A stretch of 64,000 nucleotides of DNA, taken from contig CM041776.1 of the NCBI GenBank assembly GCA_023374045.1, positions 283,711,999-283,775,998 on the forward strand. The letters are read 5' to 3'. This document shows, piece by piece, positions 5,045 through 64,000 of this stretch. How positions within the stretch are numbered: the first letter of the stretch is position 1; every line of letters begins with the position of its first letter. The translations under genes and the position numbers were made by a program. The DNA is from Limonium bicolor. Lineage: Eukaryota > Streptophyta > Magnoliopsida > Caryophyllales > Plumbaginaceae. The notes under the pieces were generated by a model. That model worked only from the letters and a program-made list of their open reading frames with translations. It made no database searches and was not told the DNA's origin.

Positions 5045-5515
5045 GGACCGACCTTGGGACCGAACTTGCAAGGTCGGTCGAGCCCAGATTTACAAAGACG
5101 GGAAAGCTTCTGGAATGACCGGACTTGGACCGGACTTGCAACTTGCAAGTTCGGTCGGACTAAAAATTCTCCCGTCTGTAACCTACTGGAATGGACCGAC
5201 CTTGCGACCGGACTTGCAAGGTCGGTCGACTCAAAAATTTTCCGTCGAGTAAGCTACTGGAATGGACCGACCTTGCGACTGGACTTGCAAGGTCGGTCGG
5301 GCTAGAATTCGCCTGTAACGAAACTTACTGGAATGGACCGACCTTGGGACCGGACATGCAAGGTCGGTCGACTCCAGAATTTCGAAACCAAAACTTACTG
5401 GAATGGACCGACCTTGGGACCGGACTTGCAAGGTCGGTCGGCCAGAAGAATTTCCGTAATCTGAGTTACTGGAATGGACCGGACTTGCAAGGTCGGTCGC
5501 AAGTCCGGTCCGGTC
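5045..5515 (+). repeat. Tandem hairpin array in LTR A, about 71-bp period
   Basis: Seven related units are visible. The clear ones start at 5193, 5264, 5335, 5405 and 5476, with 70-71 bp between starts. Each holds a roughly 36-bp inverted repeat with arms of the type GGACCGACCTTG and CAAGGTCGGTC, preceded by CTGGAATGG. The first two units (5045 and about 5116) are diverged. Chance ORFs across it read as short peptide repeats ending QGRS, which I do not regard as coding. Confidence 0.9.
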
Positions 5516-7018
5516 AAAAAAAAAATTAATTAAATTAAATATATATATATATGTGTATACCTACATGTATATATTATGTACATGTATGTAAGCATGCAAA
5601 CGTTGAGTAAGAAAGTGAAACTTAAGTAATGAAAAATAAGTAAGTAAAGTGTAAGTGTAAGAAGTATAAGGACATAGTAAGTAGGAGTTAAGTTGATGAT
5701 AGGTATATTAATTACTCAATTATATGTATATAATAGGACTTGATTTGTGACACCGAAGGACGTTTGGAAACACGTGCAACGGTGAACGGTATGGATTCCT
5801 CATGCCCCGTATGCTATCTTGGTTACTCTGATTTGTGTGTTGTGCTAATTGATCACCAAATAAGATAAATGCACGAATCGGAGTTATTATGCATACTTGT
5901 GAAAATGTAGTGTTGTATGTTATGAATTTTTCTTAAATCTTAGTTTGTATAATTCATGAAATGTATGGATGATATGAATGCTTGTATGAATGTTGCAATG
6001 TATTGTGACCGAATGTGTTGACTTTGGACTTCTAACTTATTCCTAACAAGCTAACCATTCTAACTTAAATTGGTAATTAAATTGGAATGAGTAGAAGTCC
6101 GATATAGTTTCGGCCACGCGTGAGGATGCGGAGTCACGAGAGGTTGGCTCCAATTCCTGACTCTTAAACTGGTCCGCGGCCCAAATCCCTTAAGTGGGTA
6201 GCATCCCGGATTGGTGAGTCAAGTAAATCCCGGAGGTGGGACGGCGTAGTCCCCAGGGCCGGAGGTCCTGACGACTTAACTTGAGTATAAGTAAGTAAGT
6301 AAGAATGAGTAAGTAAAGTAAATGAAAGTAAGTAATTGTAAGTAAGAAAAAAAAGTAAGTAATGAGTAAAAGAGTAAAAGCATTACGATTAACCCGGATG
6401 CATAATTTGGCTAACCTTGTGAAGGTAAGTAAGATGTGTGCTATTATATTGTTGCCTTGGATTGTGTAATGAATTGTACTAGCATGTATGTTGAATGCAA
6501 AGCATGTATGTATGAAATAAATGAACAGCATGTTTAGTGGACGTCAAATAGTCGGCGTGCCCTAGCTAGCACGCGGTATATGCGGAGTTTATACGCAGCG
6601 TTTGCTGAGCCCCTTGGGGCACCATTTTTACTACACGCAGGTACTCGTGAAGGATGAAGATGTGAAGGCTTAGTTTTATTTCTTTGTCTTTCTTTTTGGA
6701 TTGTAAACAATGAAATTATGATTGGTGTACTGAGTAGTACATGGCTATAGCTTTTGATTAGCCGGTGTACCATGGGGTACACCTTTTTGGATTTTGATAG
6801 GATGGGAATTGGTATAGATGAGTAGCCTTAGAAACTCATTCTTTTGGTAAGCTTGAAAGGTTGTAATTGAATATACTTTAAATACTCGGTGATCCAGGAT
6901 GTAAGTATACTCGGTGATCCAAGAATTGTAAGTATGTTATGTTTTGGGTAATGGAAGCAATGTCTAGTAGCTCGGTACTTATGTTCATCAGACCGTGGCT
7001 GTAAGTAAGGTAAGCCTA

Positions 7019-7040
7019 GCTAGCCGTATGGGCGGTTAGC
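7019..7040 (+). other. Conserved stem-loop near the 3' end of LTR A
   Basis: The arms GCTAGCCGT and GCGGTTAGC pair over 9 positions (two G-T wobbles) around an ATGG loop. GGCG follows at once and a CCGCTG box follows about 45 bases on. The same arrangement occurs in LTRs B, C and D with different stem bases. Confidence 0.65.
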
Positions 7041-7148
7041 GGCGTTGTACCACCCGCCGTAGTAATTATGTAATATTTCCGCTGCGAACTCGTAAGATTA
7101 ATAGGACGATTAGACGGTAAGCATAGGATTAGCGGTTGGGGTGTTACA

Positions 7149-9788
7149 TTGAACCCCAACATGAAGGAGGTAGTTAAGAAGGAGGTTATCAAGCTCTTGG
7201 ATGCAGGTATTATCTATCCAATTTCTGACAGTGAATGGGTAAGTCCTACAAAGGTAGTACCTAAGAAGGGAGGTTTAACTATGGTGCCTAATGATAAGGG
7301 TGAGTTAGTTCCTCAGTGTATGTTACTGGGCATAGAGTTTGTATTGACTACCAAAAATTGAATGCCACCACTAGGAAAGACCATTTTCCCCTTCCCTTTA
7401 TTGACCAGATGTTGGAAAGGCTTGCAGGACAAGAATATTATTGCTTCCTAGATGGTTACTCTGGTTATTTTCAGATTCCAGTTGCTAAGGAAGATCAAGA
7501 GAAAACCACTTTTACATGTCCGTATGGTACTTATGCTTATCGACGCATGCCTTTTTGGTTTATGTAACACACCAACCACTTTTCAGCGGTGCATGACTGC
7601 TATTTTTGCTGATTTTTATTGAAAAGTGCATTGAGATCTTTATGGATGATTTTTCTGTGTTTGGATTGACTTTTGACTCTTGTTTGAGAGACTTGGATTT
7701 AATCTTAGCCAGGTGCAGGGAAACTAACTTGGTGCTTAATTGGGAGAAGTGCCACTTCATGGTGCAGGAAGGCATTGTGTTAGGACACAAAATTTCCAAG
7801 AAGGGAATTGAGGTAGACAGGGCTAAGGTCAAAGTGATAGAGCAATTGCCACCACCATCATCGGTAAAGGATGTCCGGAGTTTTCTCAGTCATGCAGGTT
7901 TTTATAGGCTTTTTGTTAAGGATTTTTCTAAGCCTCTTTGTGATTTGTTAATTAAGGATGCTAAATTTGAGTTTACAAAAGAGTGTTTAGATGCTTTTAA
8001 TTTGCTTAAGGCTAAATTGGTTTATGCTCCTGTAATTGTTGCTCCTGACTGGTCACTACCTTTCGAGATTATGTGTGATGCTAGTGATTATGCTCTGGGA
8101 GCAGCTTTGGGTCAGAGGCATGACAAAGTGTTGAGGATAGTCTATTATGCTAGTAAGACTATGAATGATGCGCAGAAGAATTACGCAACCACGGATAAGG
8201 AGCTGCTGGCAATTGTCTTTGTGTGTGATAAGTTTCGACCTTACATCATTGGCAGCAGAGTCATTGTGCACACTGACCTCTCCGCTCTCAAGTATCTCTT
8301 TAAAAAGGTTGATGCTAAACCTCGTCTAATAAGATGGATTTTACTTTTGAAGGAATTCGACATTGAGATTAGAGATAAACCTGGAGCGCAGAACGGTGTG
8401 GCTGATCACTTATCCCGTATGGAAGTTCCAGACGATGGCAAGCCGATCAATGAGTATTTTCCTGATGAGTATGTCTACATGGTTGGTTGTTCAACGGACC
8501 CTTGGTATGCTAATATCACGAATTCTTAGCTAAGGGAATCGTTCCTCCAGAATTGACGTATCAGCAGAAGAAGAAGTTCTTCTCCACGGTTAAGCGTTAT
8601 CTTTGGGACGATCCTTTTATGTTCAAGGTTTGTGCAGACGGTATGATTCGTAGGTGTGTTTCTGAGGATGAAGCTAGAGATATCCTTTCACACTGTCACT
8701 CTAGAGAAGCAGGGGGTCATTTTGGTCCGGCTAGGACAACCGTGAAAGTTTTGGAGGTTGGATTCTTTTGGAAAAACTTGAATAAGGATTATTATCAGTT
8801 TGTGTCCACATGTGATTAGTGTCAAATGCAGGGAAATTTATCTAGACGCCACTAGATGCCTTTGAATTCTATCTTGGAAGTTGAACCGTTCGATCTTTGG
8901 GGCATTGATTTCATGGGACCGTTTCCATCATCTCAAGGTAACCTTTACATCTTGGTAGCAGTGGATTATGTTACAAAATGGGCTGAAGTAGTAGCAACAC
9001 CTACCAATGATGCAATAGTGGTGCTGAAGTTTTTGAAGAAGAATATATTCACCCGTTTTGGTGTTCCGCGAGCAATCATTAGTGATGGAGGTACCCACTT
9101 TTGCAACAAACAGTTTGACGATCTTCTGCAAAAGTATGGCGTACGACATAAGGTTTCTCTGCCGTATCATCCACAAACAAACGGGCAAGCCGAGATAATG
9201 AACAGAGAAATCAAGTGGATCCTCCAAAAATCTATCACATCCTCTAGACGAGATTGGTCGCTCAAGCTCGATGATGCCTTGTGGGCGTATCGAACTGCCT
9301 TCAAAACACCCTTAGGTATGTCTCCGTACAAGTTGGTTTATGGCAAGGAATGTCACCTGGCTGTAGAGCTGGAGCATAAGTCTTTTTGGGCAATCAAAGC
9401 GTTAAATTTTGATCTACAAAAGGCTGGTGAGAAGCGCAAATTGCAGTTGTGTGATCTTGAAGAATTTAGAGAGGAAGCTTATGAGAATGCCAAGATCTAC
9501 AAGGAGAGAACAAAGAGATGGCATGATAAGCTATTGGTCAAGAGAGAGTTTCACGTTGGGGATAAGGTTCTGCTATTCAACTCCTCTCTGAAACTGTTCC
9601 CAGGAAAGTTAAAGTCTCGTTGGTCCGGACCATTCACGGTGACAAGTGTCTCGCCGTATGGAGTCATCGGTTTAATCAACACAGAAGGGGAGACATTCAA
9701 AGTCAATGGGTCCCAGCTGAAGTATTATTTGAGTGGTGACATCACCGAGGTTCATTCGGTGATCACGGTTCATGACCCTCCATACTGA
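7149..9788 (+). pseudogene. Athila-like Ty3/gypsy pol remnant: RT, RNase H, integrase
   Basis: The sequence opens part-way into RT at the stretch NPNMKEVVKKEV, typical of the Athila/Tat branch, because chromovirus A is inserted just upstream. RT continues through VCIDYQKLNA, CFLDGYSGY and the FMDDF active-site box (about 7640). RNase H follows (IMCDASDYALGAALG, about 8070; ADHLSRME near 8400). Integrase has its zinc-binding region at 8690-8825 and a core with Asp in GIDFMGPF, Asp in SDGGTHF and Glu in GQAEIMNRE, so the acidic triad is still visible. Lesions: a frameshift near 7330, frame loss at 7555-7610, a frameshift near 8523 and an amber stop at 8817-8819 next to a zinc-ligand Cys. The integrase block 8856-9788 is open over 310 codons. 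Confidence 0.9.
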
Positions 9789-10783
9789 GTATGCAGTTGT
9801 ACGGTCTAGCCAAAGACCGAAAAGACAGACTGCTAGTTGGGAGGCAACCCAATTTTCTTTCATGTTCTTTCTTTATTTTAGCTTGTTTATCGCTTTTAAT
9901 TGTTCTAATGTCTTTTTTAGTTCATTTTCCGTGTTTAGGTTTATTAGTTTATAAGAGGTGCAAAGGGTGGTTTTGCGAAGTACACGGAGGGCCGTCCAGA
10001 GGAAGAATTCTCAATGTGGTATGGGACCTGTTACATATCTTAAGTCCTGGACCGAGCTAAGACAGAACTGTCGGCATGAATAAGAGGGTGGTCCAGGACC
10101 TGTTGCATATCTTAAGTCCCGGACCCATGAAGGATGGAAATCTCGACACGTCGTAAGAGGTGGTCCGGGACCTGTTACATATCTTAAGTCCCGGACCCAA
10201 TGCTTTAGTGATTCTCGACCTACTTCACCCAGCGGTCCGGGACCTCATCCAAGACTTAAGTCCCGGACCATACCCAGTTCCAAAAATAAATAAAGTCACG
10301 CGAGCCAGGTCGTCTTCTTCTTTCTAAATTTCCCAAATTGGAAAACCCAACTCCCGCAATCCCTAACCTGCGACTACTCTCCCGCCCCTATCGCTCAACC
10401 ATCACTCCAGCCTCCACATCACCACCTACACTCGCCTCATTCCACACTCACTTTCGTCATCCGCCCAGCCCAGCCACTCACCACACCCGACCACCACACA
10501 CTACTAATCCCAGATTCCATCGTTCAAACCACCTACCCAGTCGCCGCTACCCTACTTCCGTTCGCACCTGTAATCTCCGCCACACTCACCACCAATCGTC
10601 AGCTCCAGCCACTTTGAAACCCCACTCTAGTCGACCACCACCTCCCACCTTCGTCTGTAGCCCCCACAGAAACCACATCCCCTGTTGCTCCACATTCACT
10701 TCCTACGCCACTTGCACACCAATTGCTGTCACTCACCCCCTCTAGCCGGCACACCACCACCAATTCCTTTGTCCAAAATCTCC
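9789..10783 (+). other. Spacer between pol and env-like ORF of Athila-like element 1
   Basis: No gene. The start carries the GGGAGGCAACCCA box common after pol in Athila/Tat elements (about 9838-9852). The hairpin array at 10018-10269 follows, then a C-rich, G-poor stretch (about 10335-10760) whose 135-codon open frame is mostly Pro, His, Thr and Ser and looks compositional. Confidence 0.7.
10018..10269 (+). repeat. Tandem hairpin array, exact 72-bp period (internal region of Athila-like element)
   Basis: Four 36-bp inverted repeats start at 10018, 10090, 10162 and 10234, exactly 72 bp apart. Each has arms of the type GGTCCGGGACCT and TTAAGTCCCGGACC around a short A/T-rich centre. The 36-bp stretches between them are less alike; two share a TCTCGAC motif. 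Confidence 0.93.
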
Positions 10784-12006
10784 ATGGCTCCTAAACGTGT
10801 CCGCCGTTCTTCCACCGTCGGAGCTTCCTCAACGTCGGAAGCTGCTCTAATTCGGGTGTGGGAGACGGTTGATTCAGAGTTCATCAATGAGGCTGCTGCC
10901 CACTGGTTCCATGCGCAGGAACGGAAAATCATTGCTGAAAGGTCAGTTTGCCCAACTCTAATTGTTGATTTTGATTTGGAACGGTTGTTTTGAGCAAGAA
11001 GTTGGTTATGTCTGCTGAATCGGGGTGGAAAATGTTACCCGAGGCTGGTAAAATTGTTTTATGCGAATGCAACTTTGACTCAGGATAGGAATGCAATTAC
11101 ATATGTGGTTAAGAGGAAGGACATTCTGGTGAATGCCTCCCGCATTAGGAGGTTTCTGGATTTTTCCTGTAGCCACTAGGATTCCGACGCAGGAGAATAG
11201 AGATAATCAGGCATTGCTAGAGCGTCAAGCTAAAGAGTATTATATAAATCTGATTGTTAATGATCCCGAGGTCCAGAACCAACAGAGGAGAAATAACCGG
11301 GATAAGCAGGTAGTTACTGGGGATAAGCTACCTACCCCAGTCGAGCGTCTGATTTTGGGGATACTCATGTACAATGTTCGGCCCCGGGAGTGCGCAGTCC
11401 ATGGTCTGGGTGATTGAGACAGACAACAGTGCTTCTCTGCCCTTCCCGCACTTTCTCCAATCTTTGTTCGCTGATGCTCAGGTGGATTTTACGGATGAGC
11501 AACCCCAGTTCGCCCGGTCTCCTCTCGACATGACGATGATGAGGTTCTTTCAGTGGGAGAAGACCGAGGGTCAGTGGGTGAAGCGACATCGCACTCTACC
11601 TGGTGCGCGAGCTCCCTGACCTGCTGAGGCTAATGAGGCTGAGCCGTCTACTGTTGCCGCTGGTGGTGAGGTCCCTGATGTCCCGATGACTGCTGGTCCG
11701 ACCCCGGGATATGATGAGTTTCTTCGTGAGTTTTCTGATTGGAGGGGGATGGCCACAGCACGTTTCGATGGGTTTTGATGCTTATATGACTCAGGTGGAC
11801 ACTCGTTTGGATGAGATGAGCTTGGGCCTCTATGATTATGGAGCGCGGATCTCAGCTTTGGGGGCCCGCCAGACGGACTATGAGGCTAGACAGGAGGCGC
11901 GGTTTGCTGACTATAAGGCTCGCCAGGAGGCCCATTTCTCTGACTATGATGCCCACTTTGCTCAGCTGGAGTCCTGGCGTTTCCCTCGTGATCATCCACC
12001 ACCTTA
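10784..12006 (+). pseudogene. Athila-type second ORF (env-like / putative plant transposon protein), broken
   Basis: The likely start is the ATG at 10784 (MAPKRVRRSS). Broken frames then read as the protein found downstream of pol in Athila elements: WFHAQERKIIAERS, then a block with KLFYAN and VKRKDILVN, a PVERLILGILMYNVRP block near 11330-11390, an LPFPHFLQSLFADA block near 11440-11480, and a C-terminal stretch rich in repeated YEARQEARF-type heptads (about 11770-11990) likely to form a coiled coil. At least three frame changes occur (near 10990, 11150 and 11400) plus a stop at 11619. The family is usually called env-like, but I see no clear signal peptide or membrane segment, so a viral-envelope role is not supported here. 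Confidence 0.72.
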
Positions 12007-13428
12007 GTAGATCATTTTGCTGGTTTATTTTCTTTTATTTTCAGACTCTTTATCTTTTTATTGCTATTTTTGCTTTTCATTTATTTCTTTATTTTTGTTA
12101 TTTTGATGTCTTTTTAGATTTTTAGTCAGCATTTTTATGAATTTTTCTTTAATGATTGGGATGTAATTGATAATTCTGCTAACTCTGCTACGTTCACTCA
12201 CGGGATTGTGATCCTTTATTTTTGTTTCAAAGCTTTGCCTGCTATTCCTTGATATTCTTCCAGGCTTGCCAATGTTTTGTTAGTTTCGAATACATTACAA
12301 AGGAGACTCTGCCCAATTCTTTCCAGAATTCCATCCGCCTGATCTCTTCACCAATTTTTTAGGGGAGTTCTGTTCCTCCTTTTGCACTTTGTTTTTATTT
12401 TGAAAGCGATGAAGGCATTGCTTAATTCTAAAGTGTGAGAAGGGGGGTTGCACTTGTTTTTATTTTGAAAGCAATGAGGGCATTGCTTAATTCTAAAGTG
12501 TGAGAAAGGGGGGGTTGCACTTGCTTTTGTGTTCTGAATATCAATTTGCTTATCTTTCTTTGACTTTTGACATTATTTGGCTCTCTATTACTGGCTTTTG
12601 CTGACCCTCAACAAAAATTTTCTATTTTGACATACTTGGTTTTGATTTGTGGTTGGATGAGTCAGTTGGGAATACCGTACAAGTAGCACGTATTCTGAAG
12701 TTGAATTTGGATTTCGGTCAAAGACACTCTGGTTATACTTCTTGTATGTACAATTTTTGTTAAAATTTTTATCTATTTCCTTCAATAAAAGGTGAGACCA
12801 TTTTGTGACTATTTTTTATTGGACTAACTTGGGGCTTTGGAAAGTTATGGAATGAAAGGAAGGAAAGGACAAAGGCAATGTACTCCTCTAATCTATTCTG
12901 AACCGGAGCAGGCCTCTCCCATCTGGTAATTAAGTCCTTGAAGTGCCTTATCAGTCATCTACCTAAGATCATCTGATCTGGGATAGAAGGCCCAACACCA
13001 CTACATGGATGGAGAGAAAAGTCTGGGGGGTGAAGAGAATAATGCTAACTTAGAAAATCGGGAGAAAGTACTTTCATTTTAATAAGTTTATTGTAAATTA
13101 TTCCTTAATTATGAGTACGTGGTAATGAAAGGTAACGTGGAATATGACATTACTTCTTGCCCCTTGTCGTCCATTGGATTGTGGAAAGTAAAGCCCTAAG
13201 TGAAATCTAGACTGAACGGTCATAATAATTGTCTCAGGCATTTAACAATATCTTCGTTTCACTGTTTATGAAAACCTGCAGTACTAACCATTGTGACTTA
13301 TGATTGTTGTTCGATATTAGATTTCCTTGTACACTTTTCCTGAACTGATGATTCCCCGCTATTGAAATCCAGTATATTCTTATTGCAGTATTTGCTTGAG
13401 GGCAAGCAAAGGTTAAGTGTGAGAAAGT
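12007..13428 (+). other. 3' untranslated region of Athila-like element 1
   Basis: This T-rich stretch has no recognisable gene and lies between the env-like remnant and the LTR. It holds a tandem duplication at 12382-12514 and ends in a degenerate polypurine tract (GTGTGAGAAAGT) directly before the LTR. Confidence 0.65.
12382..12514 (+). repeat. Two-copy tandem duplication, each copy ending in a G-run like a polypurine tract
   Basis: Copies 12382-12447 and 12448-12514 (66 and 67 bp) are nearly identical. Each ends in GTGTGAGAAGGGGGG or a one- or two-base variant, which resembles the tract expected before an Athila LTR. Confidence 0.8.
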
Positions 13429-15019
13429 TGATAAGTCGGGAATTTACCTATTTCTATGGGGTTTCTTTATGCCTAATTCGTTGATTTTTACCACTAAATT
13501 CCCGTCTTATGAGTATTTTTGAGGTTCATGTTGCAATTGTCTTCTATGATGGGTTTTTGTGCCATTTCAGGTAAAAATCTCAAGAAAGCACGTTCCCTAT
13601 CATTGTTGAAGTATTTTGGCTTTTCAAACAAGTTGAACGGAGTGAAGACGCACATTATCCAACAATTTCAGGTTAGGTCCGGGACCTCATACAAGTCCTA
13701 AGTCCCGGACCAACCCTTAGACGGATTCTCGACCTCTTTTGAAGATTGGTCCGGGACCTCATACATACCTTAGGTCCCGGACCATAACAAGACCTGATGC
13801 TTGAACAAATCTGAGGACGGGTCCGGGACTTGATACACATCCAAAGTCCCGGACCACAACCAGGCTTCACTCTCGACTAGTTTTAAGGACAGGTTCGGGA
13901 CTTCATACATATCTTAAGTCTCGAACCATGCATAAAGACAATTCTCACGGATTTTGAAGGATGGTCCGGGACCTTAGACGTGGACTAAGTCCCGGACCAA
14001 TTAGATAAAACGCAGCAGATTTCCTAACTGAAAGAGATTTTTGAAGATAAAGAGGAGGTTGGGAGAACGTCCTATAAAGGCCAAAATATACAGAATAGCA
14101 TAGACAGTTTTTGACACAGAACACAAAGGAGAGAGAGAAAAGGTTGAGCTTTGGGAAGATCTTGGAGATTATTGAAGAGAGAAGACTGAAGGCTAAGAAT
14201 AGAGAATTCGCGACGGCTACCGAAATCAGAGTTTCTTCTAGTTCTTCCTTCCCTGAGTCTGTTCTATTCAATTTGAGCACTGTTATCATGACTATGTCTG
14301 AGTAGTCCCTTTTTAATTCTGGTTTTCTATGTATCCCTAGATTGATTATTCCTGTACCTTTGTGATTTTCTGCAATTCGATTGAATAAAGTTCTTTTCTT
14401 TACTGAATTTCCTTAATCTTTTATAATCTAGCCAATTATAGAGATTACTATTTTGTTAGCTTATAAGTGACGAATGCGGCTTTCAATTGAATACAGGAAA
14501 AGAACCGGTTAGTATAGAGATGGTAATTCCTCTAAATTGCTAATTGACCATTAATCTAGATTGTTCTTAAAGTAGTTAGTAAGTATTGGGTTCATAACGG
14601 GAGTTAGAATTCGGTCTTTACTAATTAGAATTTGCTGAGCGGGAGACCAGAGGTAAATTACCATTGTTCTAGGGTGTTATTCAGAATTGTTTTGGAAATT
14701 ACTTAGGGAAAGGAATTACAAATCTAGGGAGAAGTAGTAAACCGGGATTCCTTTCCCAAATTAGATTCGAATCAATTAATTTTACTGCTATATTTTTCTG
14801 CTATTTACTGTTTTTCAATCTATTTACAGCAATTATTCACATCAAACTAAAACCCCCAATTTCTTGTTTTTCATACGTTGTTTAGTCTTTTTATTTTTGT
14901 TCGTTTAGTAAAGATTAAAACTAGACATCGCCTTCTCTGGTTCAATACTTAGGGAATACTCTCTAATTAAAACTTGCTAGAATTGACCGGTACACTTGCC
15001 ATTAGGTTTTACCCCATCA
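13429..15019 (+). repeat. 3' LTR of Athila-like element 1 (1,591 bp)
   Basis: It begins TGATAAGTCGGG after the degenerate polypurine tract and ends CCCCATCA, so the ends read TGAT and ATCA. The ending, with GGTACACTTGCC shortly before, is typical of Athila LTRs. It contains a five-unit hairpin array (13676-13998) and then a purine-rich leader (about 14040-14200). The 5' LTR is left of the window, so the target duplication cannot be checked; the five bases after the LTR are GGAGG. Confidence 0.85.
13676..13998 (+). repeat. Tandem hairpin array, 72-bp period (LTR of Athila-like element)
   Basis: Five 36-bp inverted repeats start at 13676, 13748, 13820, 13892 and 13963 (spacing 72, 72, 72 and 71). 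Arms are GGTCCGGGAC and GTCCCGGACC with few changes; unit 4 has GGTTCGGGAC with GTCTCGAACC, so the change is matched on both arms. Spacers are diverged, but three share TCTCGAC or TCTCAC. The units match those at 10018-10269 in the same element. Confidence 0.93.
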
Positions 15020-16030
15020 GGAGGTCCGGGTTTGTTACTTAGAAAGCAAACCAAACCCAAAAGGCTGAGGGCAAAATCATATTTCGTCATCCATCTGAGT
15101 GAGAATCGGCCACTGAGGGTGTGCTATGTAGCTGGTCCGGATGATCCTCCTGGTCACAAACCCGGACCAGGCTCAATTTTCAACAGATTGACGAGTTAAA
15201 AACGTAGAAAGAAGAGAATGAAGAGAAGACTCCGCGGGTGACGATCATAGTTGAGAAAAGAAGAAAATGAAGGGAAACGAAGAGAAGAAGAAGATAAAAA
15301 AGAAGGAGAAAGGAAGGGGCTCTACCTCCATTGAATCTCATCACCTTATCCATGACTATTTTTCTCCCTTTCTCTTCTCTATCTTTTTATTGCTTCAGTA
15401 GTCTCTTTGTATCTTGGGATGGGATTTTTCCCCTAAACCCTTAAACTTCATCATTGAATTTAAAACTTGGTTAATGCTTTATTTTAGTTCTTGTGCTTAA
15501 TGAAGAAGATTATTGAGTGATTATGGCTTATGAGATTGTCTTTATTGAATTTGGGGATTTGCTTAGGGTTTGCTCAATTATTTGTCAATGTGTTAAATTG
15601 GTTGGTTTAACGTTGCCGATTAGTTTAGCATTAGTGTGGATTTCTATGGACAGTTTTCCGGAAGTAGGAATCTATACCGTTGGGGACTAAATTAATGTTA
15701 TTTATCAAAGGTCGGTGAGATAGATTCCATTGCAACTTTGGGGAACTTGTGCTTAATACTATCGATTGAACCGAGTATTCGGATTAACCTTTGGGTTCTG
15801 GCTAAATTGGTTAGGATTAGTAGACCAGGATGTGAGCTATTAGTTATTTAAGTGTTCCCGTGTTTAGCTGTAAGTTCAAGGATCGACAATCAGTAGTAAA
15901 GGGGTTATGGGTGCAAAGATCCATCCTGAGATACACCTATCCTAGATTGGTTAGATTAGTTTTATTGTTTTCTTTATTTTTCCATCTATCTAACCAAAAA
16001 CCCCAAAATTGTTCTCTCTAGAAGGCCTAG
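15020..16030 (+). repeat. Partial LTR of a further Athila-like element
   Basis: After the Athila LTR ends, a related but distinct LTR piece follows. It has a single hairpin at 15133-15167 (arms GGTCCGG and CCGGACC), a purine-rich leader (15200-15320), then a T-rich stretch with TTGGGATGGGATTT and a late block (CCATCCTGAGATACACC) that resemble the same zones of the LTR at 31041-32313. I cannot find a clean right end. Element 1 probably inserted into this LTR, so its left part would lie beyond the window. Confidence 0.55.
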
Positions 16031-41473: not shown

Positions 41474-41495
41474 GTTGGTCACGTGGGTGACTAAC
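41474..41495 (+). other. Conserved stem-loop in LTR B
   Basis: The arms GTTGGTCAC and GTGACTAAC pair over 9 positions (one wobble) around a GTGG loop; GGCGGTAACACC follows and CCGCTG lies about 30 bases on. Confidence 0.65.
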
Positions 41496-41672
41496 GGCGG
41501 TAACACCAAATGTTGTAAGAAATCCGCTGCAAAGTTAATATAAGTGAATGGAGGTTTATGAGATAAGTGTGGCTTTATAAGTGAATGGAGGTTTATGAGA
41601 TAAGATGACAGGAATTACCGAACTTAGGAGAATATTAAGGTTGAATTTGAGTTATGGGTTAAGGGTTGAGTG

Positions 41673-50800: not shown

Positions 50801-51098
50801 TATTGGAAAACATGAAGATGAAAGCGATTGAAGCTTGAAGAAGATGAGAGAATTTTACTTTTGTACATATATTCTTCTTGGTAAAACGTTGTATTACAGA
50901 ACTAATGACCCAGCTTTGTTTATATACTAATATATCTCTTTGTAAAGATAAATAATGCTGTTAATAAAATCCTAACTAACCAAATATTTAGATGTTTACA
51001 GATAAAGAAACAAAACTGTAAACTTGTAAATATAATGTGGGCCTAAACATTGTACTAGGCTAATTAAATACTGGACTGGGCTGAATATTAGCCCAATA
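50801..51098 (-). repeat. 3' LTR of the copia element
   Basis: 298 bp, TATTGG to CCAATA. On the minus strand it directly follows a G-run (51099-51111), part of the polypurine tract. Confidence 0.92.
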
Positions 51099-54000
51099 CC
51101 CCCCCCCCCCTCAAGCCGTTGATCAGAAGTATGAGTGTAAGTGATGTCCACCAAACCTTGTTGAATCTTCTCCCGGACAAAATGACAATCAATTTCAATG
51201 TGTTTAGTACGTTCATGAAAAACAGGGTTGCGTGCTATATATATAGCTGACTGGTTGTCACACTTGACCGGTACAAGAGTAATGTGTGTGGCATCCAGTT
51301 CATGTAACAAACGTGTAAGCCATGTCAATTCCGCTGTAACCCGTCGTAAGGAACGGTATTCCGCTTCTGCACTAGAAAGAGACACCGAGCCTTGCTTCTT
51401 AGTCTTCCAAGAAATAGGACTATCTCCTAGGAAAATGAAATAACCGGACACAGATTTTCTGGTGTTTGGACAGGCAGCCCAATCAGAGTCACAGTAGGCA
51501 AGAAGATCAAGTGTAGGAGTAGAACCTTTGGCGAGGACGATGCCATAGTTCAGGGTTCCTCTGATATAACGAAGAGTATGTATGGCTGCCTCCATATGAA
51601 TATCACTTGGATTTTTCATAAACTGGCTAAGAACCTGAACTGTAAAACTGATATCTGGTCGGGTGTTGGTTAAGTAGTTGAGCTTACCCACTAACCGTCT
51701 GTAAAGTGTGGGATCCTTGAGAGATGTGCCATCATCAACACGTAGCTGTTTGCCCACAACCATTGGACCTCTCGAAATTCTTTCGTCAGCGCTAGCGTAT
51801 TCCTTCAAAAGTTCCAAGCAAAACTTTCGTTGTGAAAGAATATAACCCTGATTGTATGGAATAAATTCTATTCCCAAGAAATAATGCAAGCTTCCTAGAT
51901 CCTTGACACGGAAGTTGAGATCTAGAGCCCGCTTAATTCCATCTATTTCCTTTTGACAAGCTCCAACGATCAACATGTCATCCACATAAACTGCTATGTA
52001 TATCTTGCTCTGAGTAGTCTCCTTATAGAAAAGAGAATAATCATTCTTTGATTGGACAAAATCAAGAGTGTGAAGGAAACTGGCCAGTTTGGAGAATCAC
52101 TGTCTAGAAGCCTGTTTGAGCCCATACAATGACTTGCGCAACCGACATGCCTTGTTTGCCACTGCGACCTCTAGACCCTGAGGCAAGCGCATGTAAACCT
52201 CTTCATCAAGATCACCATGCAAGAAAGCATTATTAACATCGAGCTGGTTAATGATCCACCCTTTGCTAAGAGCCACAACAATAAGAGAACGGATCGTCGT
52301 GAGCTTGACCACTGGGGAAAAAAGTTTCGTGATAGTCAAGACCATGACGTTGAGTGAACCCCTTTGCTACTAAACGAGCCTTGTACCGTTCTAACGTCCC
52401 ATCAGATTTGAGCTTGACTTTGTAGACCCACTTGCACCCAATCAATTTCTTTCCTCGTGGTAAAGTCACAATATCCCATGTATCGTTTGCTTCTAATGCT
52501 TGTAACTCATTGTGCATGGCAATCCGCCAATGTTCATGTTGTGCAGCGGCTTGATAACTATGTGGTGCACACATATCCGGATTAGATGACTGAGCATAAG
52601 AAGCCGTAGAAAGCAGTGCCACAGAACTAGCAGGTGTAGTTTCTGTTAAATTAACACAATGAGCAATAGAACTGTCAGGAGGAGTCGCAGTTCCGTAAAC
52701 TCGCTCATCAAGTATCTATTGAAAACAAGAATTGCACATATAATCATTCAAGTAGCCTGGCTTGTGAACCTCTCTACTTGAACGTCTCAAACTTGTTTGA
52801 GCAGGATCTGCCGCTTCTTGGGGTGCAGAAGTATCCACATCGAGCTGAGTTGCTTGCAATAAGGGTGGTTCTTCATCCACTAACATAGGGTTCTGATTCC
52901 CCTCCAAATTCGTTGGTTGTGGATGTTGGATGCTCGTGTTGTGAAATGGGAAATCATGAACATGAAATTTAATATCTCTGCAGACCTCAACAGTACGAGT
53001 CTCTATGCTCATGATTTTATACCCTTTCTTTCTTGGATCATCTCCCAGATAAATGCAAGCTTCTCCACGTGGTTCAAACTTTCCTCCTTTTGGACCAACA
53101 ATTGTCTTATAGCATAAACATCCAAAAGGCTTGATCTCATGATATGAAGGTTTGCTACCATACAAACTCTCATGTGGTGTCACACCATTTAATGCCTTGG
53201 TAGGTAGAAGATTGATCAAAAAGGTTGCATATAGAATACACTCTCCCCAGTATTCAAGTGGTACATTGGATTGAAAGAATACTGCCCTTGCTGTTTCCAG
53301 AAGATATTTGTGGTTCCTTTCTACTATGGCATTCTGTTGAGGTGTATAAGAACATTTTGTTTGATGAACAATTCCTTGTTGCGCATAATAAGATTTTCCA
53401 TCGTTAGAACACCCCAGCTCTTTGGCATTATCTGTTCTCACCACTTTGACCTTTGTATCAAATTGTCTTTCCACCATTCTAATAAAATTAATGATGGCCT
53501 TCCAAGCATGTCCCTTCTGTTTGATGAGAGTAACCCAAGTAGTACGAGTATAATCATCAACGAAACACACAAAGTATTTGTACCCGTTGTATGTGTTGGT
53601 AATAAAGGGGCCCCAAACGTCAATATGTAACATCTCAAAAGCTCTCTTGGTTTTGCTTGTAGAATTAGCGAACGGTAAACGTTGAGCTCTAGCTTTGTAA
53701 TGAACATCACAAGCATACTCTAGAGAAAAATCGGTCTCTTTTATTATTCCAAGTTTTACAAGCTTTCGAAAAGGCACATGTCCTAGCCTTATATGCATAT
53801 CTAGAGCCTTTGGGCTGACTACATTAACCGCACCATTGTAACAGCCCAAAACGACTTGACGATCCGGTCCATTCTCGCATCTGGTGGTACTGGATCTGAT
53901 AGTGTTGGAAAAACTGGAACGACCCAATTTGCTTCTGGCCCAATTGTCTAGACAGCCTGCATCCAAAACAAAAAGGTTATCTCGACCGTCTCCTACCTTG

Positions 54001-55500
54001 CTACTCTCCCCTGTGATACGGTCCTGGACATAGCAACCAGAAGAATCGAAAATGAGAGCACATTCATACTGTTTTACCATCTTCGCCACTGATATGAGAT
54101 TAAACATGAAATTCGGTACGAACAGAACTTCCTTTAGTCTCGTATTATTTCCTAATCTCACATCTCCGACAAGGGTTATGATTTGCGGGCTACCATCTGG
54201 TAAGAGTACTGTTCTTTCTCTCTCTAATATTCTCCAATTTTCCAACATGCAATGAGCTCCCGACATGTGATCGGTTGCTCCAGAGTCTATAAGCCATTGT
54301 CCTTTGAATGTATTGCCAGAATAATTACTCATTAAGCACAATTTATTGCTAACACAGAAGGTATTGTTACCTGAGAAGTTGCAATAATCGATCCCTTCTG
54401 TGTTTGCGTTTGTGGCTTTGTTACGAAACAGCTCTGTAATTTGTTGTATTTGTCTGGGCGTTAATCCTTCTCCCTGACTTTCTGTGTTATTACTTAGCTC
54501 TGGATCCGAAACCTCGTTTGTGAACGCCTTCTTCCTTCGAGCTAAAACTTTGTCCCGGCCATGAATTTGATAACAATCTACCACGGTATGGTCTGGTTTC
54601 TTGCAATTACTGCAAGTGAGTTTCTGAAAACACTCTTCTTGACTGTGCCCTAGCTTCTTACAGTAAGAACAAGATACTTTCTTCTCGTCGAATCTTCTGC
54701 TAGGGTTTCTTGAACTTTCTCCTCCAGTGCTGGCTTGACTATAAAACGACATTGAATTGTCGTTCTGATGAGTATTTCCCCTCTGTTCCTCCTCTTGAAC
54801 AACCAAGGAGAAAGCTTCCTCTAATGTCGGGGTTGTCTTCATCGCTAATATTTGTCCCCTGATGGGCAAATACTTCCAATTCAACCCCATCAGAAAGTGA
54901 ACAAGTTTATCCTGATTGCTCAACTTCTTGAGGGATTCTCTAGCGCCGCAAGTGCAACCGGAGAAAGTACACCTGGGAAAGAGACAAGCTAAGTCCAGTT
55001 CACCCCACGCTCTCTTCAATCTTGTATAATAATCTGCTACACTTTCTTCGCCTTGTCTAATTTCTGAGATTTCTCGTTTCAGGCCATGAATGACGGCAAG
55101 ATTGGTGTGCTCGAACCGCTTCAACAATTCATCCCAGAGCTCCTTGGGATCATCACAAAAACGAACACTCTCAGCAATAGTAGGACCAAGCGCCATCTTC
55201 AGCCACGATAACACCAGGGAATCCGATCTTTCCCAAGCTCCAAGCCGGATTACATCCGATTCATCGGGTTTCTCCACTTTCCCGGTAAGAAACCCATACT
55301 TGTTTTTAACCTTTAAGGCTGTTATCATGTTTGTCTTCCATCCCTGAAATCCCTTGCATCAAATCTTGAAACAAGACTTAACCCTAGGTTTTCCGCAGAA
55401 TGAACATAAATGGGATCATTTATGTCGATGATAGAATTGGTTGATACAGAAGCAGCCGACAGAGCCTCCTTCTTCCCCTTATTTGCATCATCCGCCATTC
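51099..55500 (-). pseudogene. Copia gag-pol, inactivated
   Basis: Order gag, protease, integrase, RT, RNase H, as in Ty1/copia. The main frame 52716-55328 (870 codons) holds gag, two zinc knuckles (Cys220-Cys233 and Cys239-Cys252), protease (WLIDSGATDHM, Asp348), and integrase with Asp570, Asp633 and Glu670. The integrase zinc site reads CDVH, where a second Cys is expected. Gag probably starts near 55498 (MADDANKGKK) and is separated from the main frame by a frameshift near 55350-55370. RT follows an in-frame amber stop at 52716; it has WVYKVKLKSDG, a one-base gain in a T-run near 52316, [12 protein letters not shown], a TGA stop near 52097 and YVDDM. RNase H (CDSDWAACPNTRKSVSGY) ends early: HTSDQ runs straight into the polypurine tract, so the C-terminal end is deleted. 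Not autonomous. Confidence 0.92.
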
Positions 55501-55535
55501 TTGAAGAAGATTGAGAAAGCCGCAGAAGCACCTAA

Positions 55536-55548
55536 GCTACTGATACCA
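55536..55548 (-). other. Primer-binding site of the copia element
   Basis: TGGTATCAGTAGC on the minus strand directly follows the LTR end, the initiator-Met tRNA site of copia elements with a small change near its end. Confidence 0.85.
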
Positions 55549-56404
55549 TATTGGAAAACATAATGTGTCCGGCCCGGCAGCCCGGTCCGACCCGGCCCGT
55601 AAAATAGCCCGACGAGCCCGAACCAGATAGGGCTTCCGGGCGGGCTTGGACATAAAATTAGGCCCGAATGAAAAACCGGGCCGGGCCGCGGCACATTTTT
55701 TGAGCCCGTGGGCAAGCCCGGCCCGGCCCGATTTTATATTATTATTATATATTTTTAAAATAATATATACATACTTAATTTTTATATAATATATACAAAA
55801 ATTAGATATAATATAAATTTTAAATAAGTTATATATATAATATATTAATTTTAAATAAGTATATATCTAACATATAAATCTATATTAAAATATATTAATT
55901 TAATTTTTTTTTATTAATTTATATTAAAAAAATTAAAAAACCGGGCCGGGCGGGCCGGGCTTCGGCAAAGTCTGGAAAAAATCGGGCCTAGCCCGGCCCG
56001 GCCCGAGCATGTAAAAAACCGGGCTTGGTTTTTGAAAATAGGCCCGACGGGCCTAAAATTTTCCTCTAACCCGGCCCGAACCCGGCCTGCCCGCCCGAAT
56101 GATCACCTCTAGAAAACATGAAGACGAAAGCGATTGAAGCTTGAAGAAGATGAGAGAATTTTACTTTTGTACATATATTCTTCTTGGTAAAACGTTGTAT
56201 TACAGAACTAATGACCCAACTTTGTTTATATACTAATATATCTCTTTGTAAAGATAAATAATGTTGTTAATAAAATCCTAACTAACCAAATATTTAGATG
56301 TTTACAGATAAAGAAACAAAACTGTAAACTTGTAAATATAATGTGGGCCTAAACATTGTACTAGGCTAATTAAATACTGGACTGGGCTGAATATTAGCCC
56401 AATA
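55549..56404 (-). repeat. 5' LTR of the copia element, split by a hAT-like insertion
   Basis: Removing 55562-56111 and one copy of GAAAACAT leaves 298 bp, the same length as the other LTR. Confidence 0.92.
55562..56111. mobile_element. hAT-like MITE with GGGCCGGGC repeats, 550 bp, in the copia LTR
   Basis: GAAAACAT lies on both sides (55554-55561 and 56112-56119), an 8-bp duplication as made by hAT elements. Both ends are rich in CCCGGCCCG and GCCCGAC units in inverted arrangement, around an AT-only centre (about 55735-55940). The terminal repeats are poor (AATGTGTCC against TAGAGGTGATC). No protein. Confidence 0.85.
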
Positions 56405-58071: not shown

Positions 58072-61000
58072 TGTTATACCCCTCTCAATAAACACGTAAT
58101 AATCCCTCACGTAGCATAATTAAAAGACGTCTTACAGCGGAAGAATAAACAACATAAACTCTCACACGGGTGTCACCTGCCATTACTCGCCCATGCGAGT
58201 AACGAAGCAGAAACTAAATCCAACAACCAAAATAAACAGCACTACCATACCACTGTGACAACGAGATAAATCCTATACATCATACTAAGTCCAAAAACCA
58301 TAACCGTCGACAAGTAAGCATCTACCCTGATCCCGTACTTCGGCTTCAACGATGAACAACAACCTGCAACAAGCCATAAAGGCTCAGCGATAAACGCTGA
58401 GTATGCGGGCCTGGACCCTATTGGTCACTTGTCATTTTAACCATCTTGATATTAGATTGATTTCATGCTTTACCATTTTACAGATATAATTAATACTGTA
58501 ATAAACATGCATAACCATATAACCATCCATCCAATCCAACAGTCATTACATATCACAAACAACAGTCGCATAAACGAACATATCGAATAATAACAGTACT
58601 GTGTGTATCGCCTTAGCGAACGGTTTCCATATTTAACATTATTTGGCCTTCAAGGCCCCATCCATCCAAACCATGTTTTAATTAATTACCAGTTGGACGT
58701 CATGTTGGGACAACCCGGTTAACCTTACCAATGGACAGTAGTCCTCCCGTACACACAAAGGTGCTCATTTCACCAGAGGTCCGGGGGCCCCTGACTATTC
58801 ACTTTGCCTCGTAAGGCGTCCATATAAAGACCGTAGCCGTGTACCAACAGCAGGTACCATCTGACCCACGATCCAATTAGGGCTCGTTAGGAAATTTCCT
58901 AGAGCGGAACCCGATCGGGTACCCCTCAGTGATCACAAATGCGCAACCAGGTAGTTCGTAAACTACCGGGATTCCTCCCCTCATCTCATACCAATTCTCT
59001 CATAGGATTAAGATAAACTCTTAGTGTTTAGGGAGAATACAATTTATTAGTTTGCTGCTCAATGGGTCTCACGCATACCTAGAAGTAATCTAGGTTATAT
59101 TCATGTTCAAGATCCATGCTCTAGAGACTGACATTGTCGTATCTCGTACCTAAGTATTTTACTTAGGTTATTTCATACTTAATATTAATACTAAGGTATT
59201 ATATTAAGTAACCATCGTGTCATCACATCAAACGCATATGTATGTTTATATAAGTCGATCTATAGTCGACGTAATGTTAGTCACGTAGGACGCTCGCGTA
59301 TAATTAAGTAACACATTAACACACATCATCATATGCATATATCCACACACATAACATACAAGTTATCAAACAGTTTCTGGGCCCTTTCTTAGGTCAACCC
59401 GGATCAAACCCTTCTTCACATACCGTACACCTTAGACCAAGGATGCGCAGTGTAGTCCACTAAGCTTCTCGAGCGCGCACGTCTGAAAGGTGATCTAAAA
59501 ATACGAGGAACGCTAGGTGTCAATCCACATGACAAATTGACTCGGTATTTCCTAATAAAGTCAGTGACCCCAGTACTACATCCCCGGATTCCAACTGTTA
59601 TTAGTTAAGTTACTGTTATCCTTTAAACTCCTTACTCAATGTTTGTATAAATACTTTGGTTTAACAGTGGAGTCGGTTTCATTAGAACGTCGTGGTTAAC
59701 GTTTTCGAACATAAAAGTTTATATCTTTCCAACTCATAGTAGTTTATAAGCGTTTCGTTTTTACATAAGTTCATTCGTTCTTGTACATTTAATTCAATTG
59801 TTTCATCGCATGTATAGGCACGTATTGTAACCTACAATTGCATGCATAATACATTTTATAGCCTATGGTTGCATATATAATGCATTATTTATCGTATATT
59901 ATTATTATCCCACCATCCATTATAATACATTGTTTTACATAACCATTAATCTTGTAGTATCTACATTTGAACCCAAAAAACCCATAACTTATAGTTTATA
60001 AACTATTTCATATAATAACCTTCACCATTATATTATATGGTTTCCAACCATAATTATATATCCATCCTTATATACATAATTCTCGCATATGTATATATTT
60101 ACCAATATAGGTAAGTTTCATGAGTTATAAAACTCTTATACCATATGTCACATTTTATCATCTTATGTGAGATGATTATTCCCATTAGTTGTGTTATATT
60201 GTCACAACCTATATTAAGATCATTATCTTAATAATATATAACATTTTATGTTGTATAATTTCAACTCCTAAGGTTTATTCAATATTTACCTTAGTTTATA
60301 AATCTCATTTATTTATAGTTTGTCACATTATTTAATGTGAATACCCTTATTTATATTAATTCCATTTAAACCCCATTAATACCATATAAATGTTATAACA
60401 TGTATAACATTGTAGACCTTAGTCTACAATTCATTTTCCAACCTTTATAAATTCGGTACAGCACTTTACTTTATTTTAATTTTATTTTGACCACATAACA
60501 TTATGTAATGTTATACCATATACCAATATCATATAATATGATATCTTTATCTTTTATAATTTATAACATATAGTTTTTATACAAAACTATTGTTAATTAC
60601 CGAAAAGGTATATCCATTTAAACCAATCTTATTAATTTACCATATCTTCATGTTTATTACCAAAATCACCCCATAATTTATACTATGTTATATATACCAT
60701 ATAATATAACATTTTAAACCTTAATTTAAATATAACCCATAGTTATATATATATTCTAAATTTCCGAACAGACCAATAATTCTGTTCTAATTTATTTCCT
60801 AACCCACCAACCTTTTATAATTACAATTTGACCCAATTTATAACATATAGTTTTATAATATCATCAAAACTATATATTATACACTTATCTTTTTAAAACA
60901 CTTTATATTGTTCTAGAAATCATCAAACTATACCCAAAGGTTATAAATATCATTCCTAACCCATAAACTTTCGGTTATTACAATTCCACCCCCATTTACT

Positions 61001-62262
61001 TTTCCAAAGTATAACAAAGACATAATAACTATATATTATACATATATAGCTTATTTTAAATTCCAAATTCAACCCAATAAAATCCTAAAAATTCCTAATA
61101 ACCCATGGGTGTTTAAAATACCATTGTACACCCTTAATTTTCAGTATTCACATACATACCCCATATATTATAAAAATGTTATAATTAAATACTTATCTTA
61201 TTATATAACCTTAAATAAATTATTTAACTTATCTAATTTGGTCAAAACCTACCCAATGGTCAAGGTTGACCTCCTTAATATAGCCTTGACCATTACTCTC
61301 TTTATTTACAGTTTTAACCCCTAAGTTTCCAAAATTTACCAATTAACCCCCAAAACTTTATAAAATCTTATAAACTTTATTTTAAATCCTTTTAACACCA
61401 AATTTTCACCTTTATTATTATTTAGCCCCCAAATTTGGTTTAATTATGGTCTAACCCCTTATAACTTGCGGTAATATATATTTATCACCTAAAACCTAAT
61501 TTAAACCAAATATACATAAATAAAATGGCCTAAAGTACATGGCCTTATTAAAAACATTTGCTCATAAAATAAATTACACATAAATGCTCCAAGATACATA
61601 TAATTTTCGGCCTCACCACATATTTTCCATTAATTACCAAATCTTCCACATAAAGTCTTAATTTGACATTTATGTTACTTAATTACTTAGATAAATTTAC
61701 TAAGTCATTTCCTTAACCACTTATGGTCAAAATCAGACCATATAGGCCATGTTCACTCACGGCAATTTATAAACATAAGTTTAAACTTGTGTTAATGTAT
61801 CAAGTTAAGGTTTAAGTGATTTATACCTTGATTTAGCAAGGTTAAGACCTTGTTTGGTCTCGCCACCTTAGGGAAAGTTTCTACACAGCTTGATTTACTT
61901 GTCTTCATACAGAAAACAAGACATGATTAAACTCCAAGCATAAGCTAACCATGGGAAGTGTTTTAACACTTAAATTCAAGGTAAATTTACCTTAGAAATG
62001 CAAGGGTACCTTGGCTGTTCTTCGGCCTATTTTTACAATAGTAAAAGAGTATTAAAAGGTCTCTCAAATGGAGGCTTAAAACCGGAATAACTCATATAAG
62101 AAGATGGCTAATTTTCACCTTGATTAAGATGCCAAAACGGTGTTTTGGCTTGGATATGGCTACTCCTTGTAGATCTTGGTATACCAACTGAATCCACATG
62201 AAAAGGAGAAGAAAATAAGGCTAGGGAATCAAGGTTTACAACCGGAATTGACAAGGAAGAAG
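58072..62262 (-). repeat. Chromovirus-type LTR D, minus strand, interrupted by LTR C
   Basis: Its 3' end (plus-strand left end) is TGTTATACCCC. It has the conserved stem-loop (58183-58204), GGTGTACGGTATG (minus, about 59422-59434) and, on the minus strand, a C-poor stretch (about 59700-61750) like those in A and B. No hairpin array is seen at the expected place (around 59450-59650). On its right it is cut by LTR C at 62263, at a place like the leader region of LTR A, so only about 4.2 kb of its 3' part is here. No primer-binding site follows its 3' end, so it is a 3' or solo LTR. Confidence 0.6.
58183..58204 (-). other. Conserved stem-loop in LTR D
   Basis: On the minus strand the arms GTTACTCGC and GCGAGTAAT pair over 9 positions (one wobble) around an ATGG loop; GGCAGGTGACACC follows and CCGCTG lies some 45 bases on. 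Confidence 0.65.
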
Positions 62263-62354
62263 TGTAACACCCCATCCAAAACCTTAACACTTAATCAATA
62301 ATCGCAGCGGAAATCATTACTTAAACATATACCAAAAGGGCGGTGTTACACGCC

Positions 62355-62376
62355 GTTAGCCACCCACGTGGCTAAC
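62355..62376 (-). other. Conserved stem-loop in LTR C
   Basis: The arms GTTAGCCAC and GTGGCTAAC pair perfectly over 9 positions around a GTGG loop; GGCGTGTAACACC follows, and CCGCTG lies about 50 bases on. Confidence 0.7.
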
Positions 62377-63753
62377 GAGGCTGTTACATAATATGTATCG
62401 GTCTGATCACACGAATCCCGAGCATACTTACAACCTTCCAAAAATGACCATCCAAAAAGAATTACAATATACCGAGTGTAACTGTTCAAAAATCACTAAC
62501 CCACTTTGCATCCACCAAAAGTAAACGACCTCGAGTGTACAAACACTACTCGGGTTCAACATCCAAAAACAACAAAATATCAACATCCTAGGATCTAAAG
62601 CCAATCTGCTTCCTCGATCCTCATCCTGCAAATAAACATAGCCCCCAAAGGGGGTCAGCAACCTTTTGCTGGCATGGTTAACGTGCAGCCCGCTGACTAC
62701 CGGGATACACGCAACTATTTGTCATTATTACATGGAGTTGATTTTATCATACAACGTGCATATATACAACAGGAATTATTGCAGAACAATAACAACACAT
62801 ACATAGTGAAAACAGTTCACTTTAAGTAACAACCAACATGGTTAGTCAACTTGTAAGCCTAGAGGATGTCTTCATCCTCATGTTAAGCTTAACACATATA
62901 ACAATACTGTTTTGTTAGTCGGATGAGTAACTTTAACTTGAAAGATGAGACGAGCGTAGTGACCCGAACGCATCAACACATGATTTCCCCCTAGCCCGAG
63001 TGGAAGTCAGGTAGGTAGCTTTGGCTAAGCTATGGGAGGTCGAATTCCCCATAAAAGGAAGACTACCCTAACATAAGGAGAGAGTCGAATCTGATTCAGA
63101 TGTCGACACCCATACATACACGCGTGACCGGAACGACCGGATTCCTCTCTCCCCGGTTAGCACTCGTTAGAAGTCCCACAATGGGAGCTTAACATCATCT
63201 CACACAATTAAGTGTTTAAGTCCAGTTAGACATACAAGGGAGATAAGGCATACATCGGCAACACACAACACAACCATACACACATAGCCGGGTTAGAACG
63301 TTCCTCAGGTTGGGAACGTTATTACCGGATACCGTTCTCTTACGTTTCTAGACTTGGGTTAAATAATGGTTAGCTCGCATTCGAGGTTACCGGTATCGGC
63401 ACGTACACGTCACATTAATAACAAAACTGTAAACTCGTTTCATGATTTAATCTTACAAGGTTGTAAACACACAAAAACACAAGTAGCACACAAGCCGGTG
63501 TAAACCGGTAGGCAACGGACTGCAAGAAAACCATACCTTGGTCCTTGCCGCTCTAGGGTTCCACCGTACGTTGTTCCTAAACATGATTGATAAGTTCGGT
63601 TAATTTATTTACTTAACTTCAAACTTACTAAGCATTTTACATGATTATATGACATGTTTTAAATGCCTAACTTACCCTAGATCACCCTCATTGTACCCCC
63701 TAGGGTTAACTACATTTGTCATTTTCTTTTCTCTTTTTTTTTTTTTGGTTTTG

Positions 63754-64000
63754 GGTCCGTCCGACCCACCTTTGGGTCGGACCCTTCCAGTAGCCTTCGG
63801 GTCCCAAAACTTCCATCATGTCCGACCCATGTCCGACCCACCGTCTGGGTCGGACCATTCCAGAAACATTTGGGTCTGCAACATTTACCATGTCCGACCC
63901 ATGTCCGACCCACCGTCTGGGTCGGACCATTCCAGAAACATTTGGGTCTGCAACATCTACCATGTCCGACCCATGTCCGACCCACCGTCTGGGTCGGACC
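63754..64000 (-). repeat. Tandem hairpin array, 72-bp period (LTR C), cut by the window edge
   Basis: Units start at 63820, 63892 and 63964 (72 bp apart), with a diverged one at 63754. Each has GTCCGACCC twice and then GGGTCGGAC, so a hairpin of about 37 bp forms. Because 72 is a multiple of three, the minus strand reads as 24-residue peptide repeats (VADPNVSGMVRPRRWVGHGS), which I regard as a by-product. The motif TTCTGGAATGG before each unit (minus strand) matches LTR A. Confidence 0.9.

Follow-up and report, generated by a model that had tools for sequence, protein, structure and literature searches.

Phased palindromic arrays in Ty3/gypsy retrotransposons of Limonium bicolor as candidate cis-regulatory modules

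A close counterpart of the arrays considered here is the RM box of the Ty1/copia Sireviruses, as presented by Bousios et al. (2010; PMC2829016): a high-copy palindrome with a CGG-CCG core, dense in CG, which lies in the long terminal repeat (LTR). According to that account, RM boxes start 200-400 bp past the junction with the polypurine tract (PPT), ahead of the TATA box, and occur again ahead of the env gene. Their sequence differs between elements while the symmetry stays, and they were termed Sirevirus-specific and absent from the classic Ty1/copia elements compared there. The question of an internal promoter for copia env genes was left open in the same paper. In maize, control function and silencing have been suggested to pull against each other at Sirevirus palindromes (PMC10760457). 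Here we describe five arrays of tandem palindromes, A1 to A5, in Ty3/gypsy elements of Limonium bicolor. They lie in a stretch of 64,000 nucleotides of contig CM041776.1 (hereafter the window), and the analysis covered this single 64-kb window with sequence data only. We propose that the arrays may be cis-regulatory modules of LTR retrotransposons, consisting of dyad-symmetric, CG-containing sites bound at the DNA level by a host factor, a reading to which we give a probability of about 0.55.

All five arrays were recovered where a preliminary description of this DNA had placed them, with one correction. A1 (5045-5515, plus strand) consists of about 6-7 units with arms GGACCGACCTTG / CAAGGTCGGTC and regular steps of 70-71 bp. 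A2 (10018-10269, plus strand) has four hairpins, A3 (13676-13998, plus strand) has five, and A4 (39825-40004, plus strand) has three; the start of A4 stood as given, but its right end is at 40004 and not at 39992. A5 (63754-64000, minus strand), with GTCCGACCCA / TGGGTCGGAC, has four hairpins and is cut by the window end. Hairpin starts were set by hand, and the rearranged unit and the odd last unit of A1 were excluded as starts. Measured from start to start, the steps were 72, 72, 72 in A2; 72, 72, 72, 71 in A3; 72, 72 in A4; and 72, 72, 72 in A5, that is, 72 bp in 11 of the 12 intervals and 71 bp in the remaining one. In A1 the steps were 148, 71, 71 and 70, where 148 bp is the interval over the rearranged unit. 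Steps of 70-72 bp were thus found in 15 of 16 measured across all five arrays, in agreement with the period of 71-72 bp, often exactly 72, that had been reported. The inverted repeats had been put at about 36 bp. This holds for A2, A3 and A4, where all 12 units have a 36-bp hairpin made of 10-bp arms and a 16-bp middle, but not for A1, where the span is 34 bp in five of the six hairpins found (arms of 11-12 bp), nor for A5, where it is 24-25 bp and reaches 36 only if a duplicated half-site is counted. The number of half-sites varies within units: there are extra ones in the A1 middle and in the last A4 unit, and they are doubled in A5.

The arrays are genuine and non-random. A search pattern derived from the arrays themselves, GGTCCGGGAC-N16-GTCCCGGACC with up to three mismatches allowed, gave 12 matches (seven exact), every one in A2-A4, and none in 100 shuffles. 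A looser hairpin scan gave 17 matches, 13 in arrays and four outside; in 30 shuffles it gave 1.0 on average and never more than 3. GC-rich hairpins, counted without shuffles, numbered 20 in the window, with 17 of them within arrays.

Element borders were read by eye, aided by a pattern search for LTR ends. The lineages are presumably Athila and Tekay, names that we assign from typical sequences together with the domains found, and the domain content bears out the earlier view that two different Ty3/gypsy branches host the arrays. A2 and A3 belong to one Athila-type element on the plus strand, whose RT-RNaseH and integrase pieces span 7597-9785, with RT and RNaseH ahead of rve. A2 follows the integrase end (9785) and precedes a broken 3' open reading frame (ORF) region, four pieces of which were searched against Pfam and matched no family above cut-off. 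The start of A3 is 247 bp inside LTR-A, the Athila-type 3' LTR (13429-15019, plus strand, TGATAAGTCGGG ... CCCCATCA, read by eye), which is preceded by a purine tract. A TATA-box-like CCTATAAAGG stands at 14071-14080 (plus strand), about 74 bp after the A3 end, and when both strands are scanned, no consensus TATA box other than the CTATAAAGG at this distance lies near an array. A1 lies in LTR1 (3169-7148, plus strand, ends TGAAATACCCC ... GGGGTGTTACA), which is presumably of Tekay/Del type and follows a pol region at 686-2731 with RT_RNaseH, Integrase_H2C2 and SH3_Tf2-1 domains. A4 lies in LTR4 (37326-41660, plus strand, start TGAAATACCCC; the right end is approximate, the end sequence not having been found), and A5 in the 3' part of LTR5 (62263-64000, minus strand, ending GGGGTGTTACA, the remainder lying beyond the window). 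LTR4 and LTR5 are called Tekay-type through their LTR likeness to LTR1 alone. Patterns for primer-binding sites gave one chance-level match each. Ordinary satellite DNA outside retroelements was considered and rejected, all five arrays being within LTR elements (borders by eye) with 3-7 visible units each. Two CpG-island-like stretches occur soon after A2, at 10311-10951, where the 3' ORF region has its leader and its beginning. Between this region and LTR-A there is a 65-bp tandem repeat (12382-12528) with purine runs like the purine tract before the LTR; these recall the multiple PPTs reported for Sireviruses in PMC2829016.

The Tekay-type LTRs allowed the position of the arrays to be compared. 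A1 and A4 lie +1.9 and +2.5 kb into their LTRs. LTR1, LTR4 and LTR5 are mostly diverged, but blocks in the flanks of the arrays align. For the 150 bp before A1, the best match was the 200-bp alignment window abutting A4 upstream (score 64 against a median of 24 over 48 such windows), and for the 450 bp after A1 the best matches were the windows that begin 0 and 75 bp past A4 (118 each against a median of 48). The downstream flanks of A4 and of the LTR5 array scored 78 against a median of 31. Judged by these alignments, A1, A4 and A5 have corresponding positions in three diverged Tekay LTRs, and one slot therefore holds arrays of two sequence families.

These two families were sorted by spacers: family I comprises A1 and A5, and family II comprises A2, A3 and A4. 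When spacer columns were permuted coherently, the match between A1 and A5 was equalled in 4/2000 permutations (84/2000 on the other strand) and that between A2 and A3 in 2/2000. A4 matched A2 and A3 only in reversed orientation (0/2000 each; forward 939/2000 and 141/2000). On the minus strand a model built from Athila units only gave the three A4 units 51.3, 42.0 and 33.3 bits; on the plus strand it gave them 25.5, 23.6 and 14.9 bits. The spacer core GYCGAGA is found at the same place in both A4 spacers and in four of seven Athila spacers, a fifth having it with a single change. On the evidence of the spacers, family II is homologous across Athila and Tekay and flipped relative to the element, which supports the suggestion in the preliminary description that arrays are shared between elements. 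No link between families I and II emerged from the spacers: for A1 against family II the values were 197/5000 (expected register) and 819/5000 (control), and for A5 they were 4000/5000 and 2723/5000. A single ancestor of all five arrays is unsupported by these permutations. In a collection of viral contigs the exact hairpin was found in no stretch, nor did any of three probes, two for Athila and one a Tekay protein, find relatives there. A collection of genome contigs yielded eight bacterial stretches with one hairpin site each; on these loci the hairpin model found only those sites and three weak matches, and we took them as chance.

Hairpins are better kept than the spacers between them, as had been claimed. 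This was measured on the nine family II units with a full spacer, out of 12 hairpins: identity was 0.88 in the left arm and 0.92 in the right arm, against 0.66 in the middle and 0.42 in the spacer, with 0.71 in the spacer core, and the arm excess over the rest was reached by 0/5000 column permutations. Because the arm and the spacer of one unit are of the same age, this gap points to constraint, and it supports the view that the palindromes matter. Array by array, identity of left arm, middle, right arm and spacer was 0.80, 0.96, 0.93 and 0.39 in A2 (16/5000), 0.95, 0.71, 0.90 and 0.48 in A3 (0/5000), and 0.90, 0.38, 1.00 and 0.58 in A4 (3/5000, two units). In the five regular units of A1, which leave out the rearranged and the last unit, identity was 1.00 in the arms, 0.84 in the middle, 0.43 in the first part of the spacer and 0.95 in its last nine bases. 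Taken singly, eight of the 24 family II arms form a perfect 11-bp palindrome, GGTCC-N-GGACC, and a further 12 miss it by one pair.

How might such arrays work? We propose that the tandem dyad-symmetric, CG-containing sites, of types GGTCCGGGACC, GACCGACC and GTCCGACCC, would bind, at the DNA level, a nuclear factor of the host that is probably dimeric. The sites would act from where they are placed, namely ahead of the TATA box in the Athila LTR, ahead of the 3' ORF region of the Athila element and at a single fixed point in the Tekay LTR. How strongly an element is transcribed, or protected from silencing, would be set by the copy number and the phase of the sites. The arrays would be renewed by tandem duplication and would be exchangeable between elements; the gypsy lineages may have reached them independently or may have exchanged them. 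The earlier reading of the arrays is upheld in part, the promoter-proximal placement in Athila and the Sirevirus precedent having been missed.

Several observations weigh against this proposal. No consensus TATA box was found near A2 or the Tekay arrays on either strand, and the Tekay arrays may be intronic rather than upstream. The downstream flanks of A1 and of the LTR5 array match weakly (40 against a median of 33), while other blocks of LTR1 and LTR5 do align, and a further LTR, LTR6 (58072-62262, minus strand), is without an array. No single motif fits families I and II together. The left arm of A2 is less kept (0.80) than its middle (0.96), and 4 of the 24 family II arms have lost two or three of five palindrome pairs. 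Finally, the flip of family II could result from transfer, but orientation flips could also stem from recombination between inverted arms.

An alternative explanation is that the arrays act as RNA: transcribed hairpins would form double-stranded stems for small-RNA production or packaging, and host or element would select the fold. Small RNAs are in excess on the LTR palindromes of maize Sireviruses (Bousios 2016, as cited in PMC10760457), which keeps this alternative live. Compared with shuffles, both arrays tested (two of the five) gave strong predicted folds, with z of -8.3 for A3 and -13.1 for A1; any palindrome, kept for whatever reason, folds well and would give them. Changes matched on both arms had been offered as evidence of the fold. 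This did not hold up, since the changed pairs in family II comprised one two-sided and eight one-sided changes (8/9 one-sided), and 180/500 shuffles had two-sided changes as high. Matched arm changes are thereby discarded as proof of a fold, as is a structured RNA element identified by compensatory changes in family II. On the plus strand, which is sense for each of the three family II elements, four of the one-sided changes are wobble-compatible and four are mismatching, which gives the fold no advantage; with A4 turned round the count becomes five wobble against three broken pairs, in its favour. The span of the hairpin also varies between arrays, from 24 to 36 bp. No Rfam match at gathering score fell on the arrays. 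The only two in the window are both at 43671-43745, a plastid-like stretch (matches to the ycf2 5' untranslated region and to transfer RNA) that is probably a nuclear plastid insertion. The arms of A1 and A5 differ on both sides in concert (by eye), which fits a change of site and a change of fold alike. Tolerated one-sided changes are what is expected if each arm is a site, and on these comparisons the arms seem constrained as sites and not as a fold. We regard a role of the arrays as RNA as unlikely.

Neutral turnover we likewise regard as unlikely. Here reverse-transcriptase slippage would generate the tandem repeats in non-coding parts, template switching would perfect the palindromes, and the 72-bp step would be inherited. 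Tandem repeats are common in plant LTR elements (PMC11963269; PMC7004042 by its title), and common descent accounts for the step within each family. Against this, arms and spacers of the same age differ sharply in identity, the two arms of a unit match each other no better than chance, and the arrays occupy a corresponding position in three LTRs.

The composition of the Tekay LTRs changes abruptly at A1 and A4. In the 1 kb before each (4045-5044 and 38825-39824) the sense strand has 7.5% and 6.1% C, 27-30% G, and three and two CG sites. A chromatin boundary or insulator, in which a CG-dense array would stand between the two halves of the Tekay LTR, one poor in C and in CG and the other normal in CG, agrees with the CG counts per kb in LTR1 and LTR4 (3.0 and 2.0 before the array, 80.7 and 44.4 in it, 32.5 and 24.3 after), but is very improbable given that LTR6 has a similar CG step without an array and that the Athila arrays are not at such a step. 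Averaged over the whole array, all five reach 50% GC and an observed/expected CpG ratio of 0.6, A4 being merely 180 bp long, while a strict sliding scan placed a CpG island over A5 only.

Outside the five arrays, an older LTR fragment (15020-15170), into which LTR-A seems to have inserted, holds decayed boxes GGTCCGGGTTTG and CTGGTCCGGAT/ACCCGGACCAG. The latter, at 15132-15170 (plus strand) just outside LTR-A, is possibly a decayed box of the same kind, with model E-values of only 0.13 and 0.4. A further Athila-type LTR lies before a gag at 32738 and spans 31041-32310, borders being read by eye; some 290 bp into it is a weak inverted repeat (31332-31373). These other Athila-like LTRs (15020 onward and 31041 onward) showed only weak or decayed boxes. 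The stretch 17979-18111 has an isolated GGTCCGGGACC and, about 100 bp on, a ATTCTCGG/CCGAGAAT inverted repeat that resembles the family II spacer core. Two long, near-perfect inverted repeats that are related to each other, at 48900-49382 and 26258-26661 and self-complementary at 91% and 95%, are perhaps foldback elements or similar to miniature inverted-repeat transposable elements. In keeping with plant nuclear DNA, the window also holds a gene for glyoxal oxidase as well as elements of both copia and gypsy type, among them a minus-strand copia element at 50806-56404 that is probably a young insertion, because its 293-bp LTRs are 99% alike.

Among the literature matches listed, from open-access texts, none was a precedent for such arrays in gypsy elements, and several known systems resemble them in part. 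The LTRs of Del (Tekay) elements contain CpG islands, a CG-dense variable stretch (PMC4029996), and a CG-dense stretch within a Tekay/Del LTR is what we see here; the main text of that paper uses neither "palindrom" nor "tandem", and for its eudicot group Cruz et al. (2014) reported none of these islands. In PMC11963269, tandem repeats were reported in about half of the Retand elements examined, a likeness within gypsy elements, but as described there these lie between pol and the 3' LTR, which here applies to A2 alone. A TRAYC-like 73-bp imperfect palindrome is the sole likeness between two satellite families of Silene (PMC3212565); unlike our arrays, those repeats are satellites, with monomers of 165 and 200 bp. 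The anti-silencing targets of VANDAL/VANC differ in belonging to DNA transposons, and the main text of PMC5735166 does not use "palindrom".

The comparison with the RM boxes, as they are characterised in PMC2829016, goes further. Our arrays too are made of a repeated box with dyad symmetry, but the Sirevirus box belongs to Ty1/copia elements and the hosts here are Ty3/gypsy elements of Athila and Tekay types; because the host element differs, the arrays are not Sirevirus boxes by membership. A3 is alike in position (+247 bp, with the TATA box 74 bp after it), and A2 is in the place of the second Sirevirus cluster before env, with the reservation that the 3' ORF is broken and its env identity putative. 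Both RM-box-like places therefore occur in one gypsy element, the env position being putative, whereas the Tekay arrays are mid-LTR and share the motif style only. With respect to the CGG-CCG core, family II has CGGGAC...GTCCCG and the family I arms have the order CCG...CGG. RM boxes are reported at 8 copies or more per element; the Athila element has nine (A2 and A3 together), A1 has 6-7, A4 three and A5 four, cut by the window end. The boxes here further differ in being paired and phased at 70-72 bp, and in that family II is common to two lineages. Taking one chosen unit per array, 6-mers in common with RM boxes were matched by 29 (A1), 98 (A2), 38 (A3) and 13 (A5) of 4000 shuffles; the A4 unit was not clearly above shuffles (352/4000). 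This single-unit test replaces whole-array counts, which overstate the match in that repeated units are not independent. Judged by these likenesses, the arrays probably work like Sirevirus boxes. It is tempting to go further, to a single CG-core palindromic module, read by one conserved plant nuclear factor and common to the copia Sireviruses and the gypsy Athila and Tekay elements: a phased cassette that would pass between lineages, its letters changing on both arms while position and step are kept, so that rival retroelements share one switch. We hold this only as a speculation. If plant retroelements of different superfamilies do share the module, the factor reading it would give general access to how retrotransposons are activated and silenced. 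The two-place layout, which parallels that of the Sireviruses, also allows the idea of an internal promoter ahead of the 3' ORF in Athila elements to be tested.

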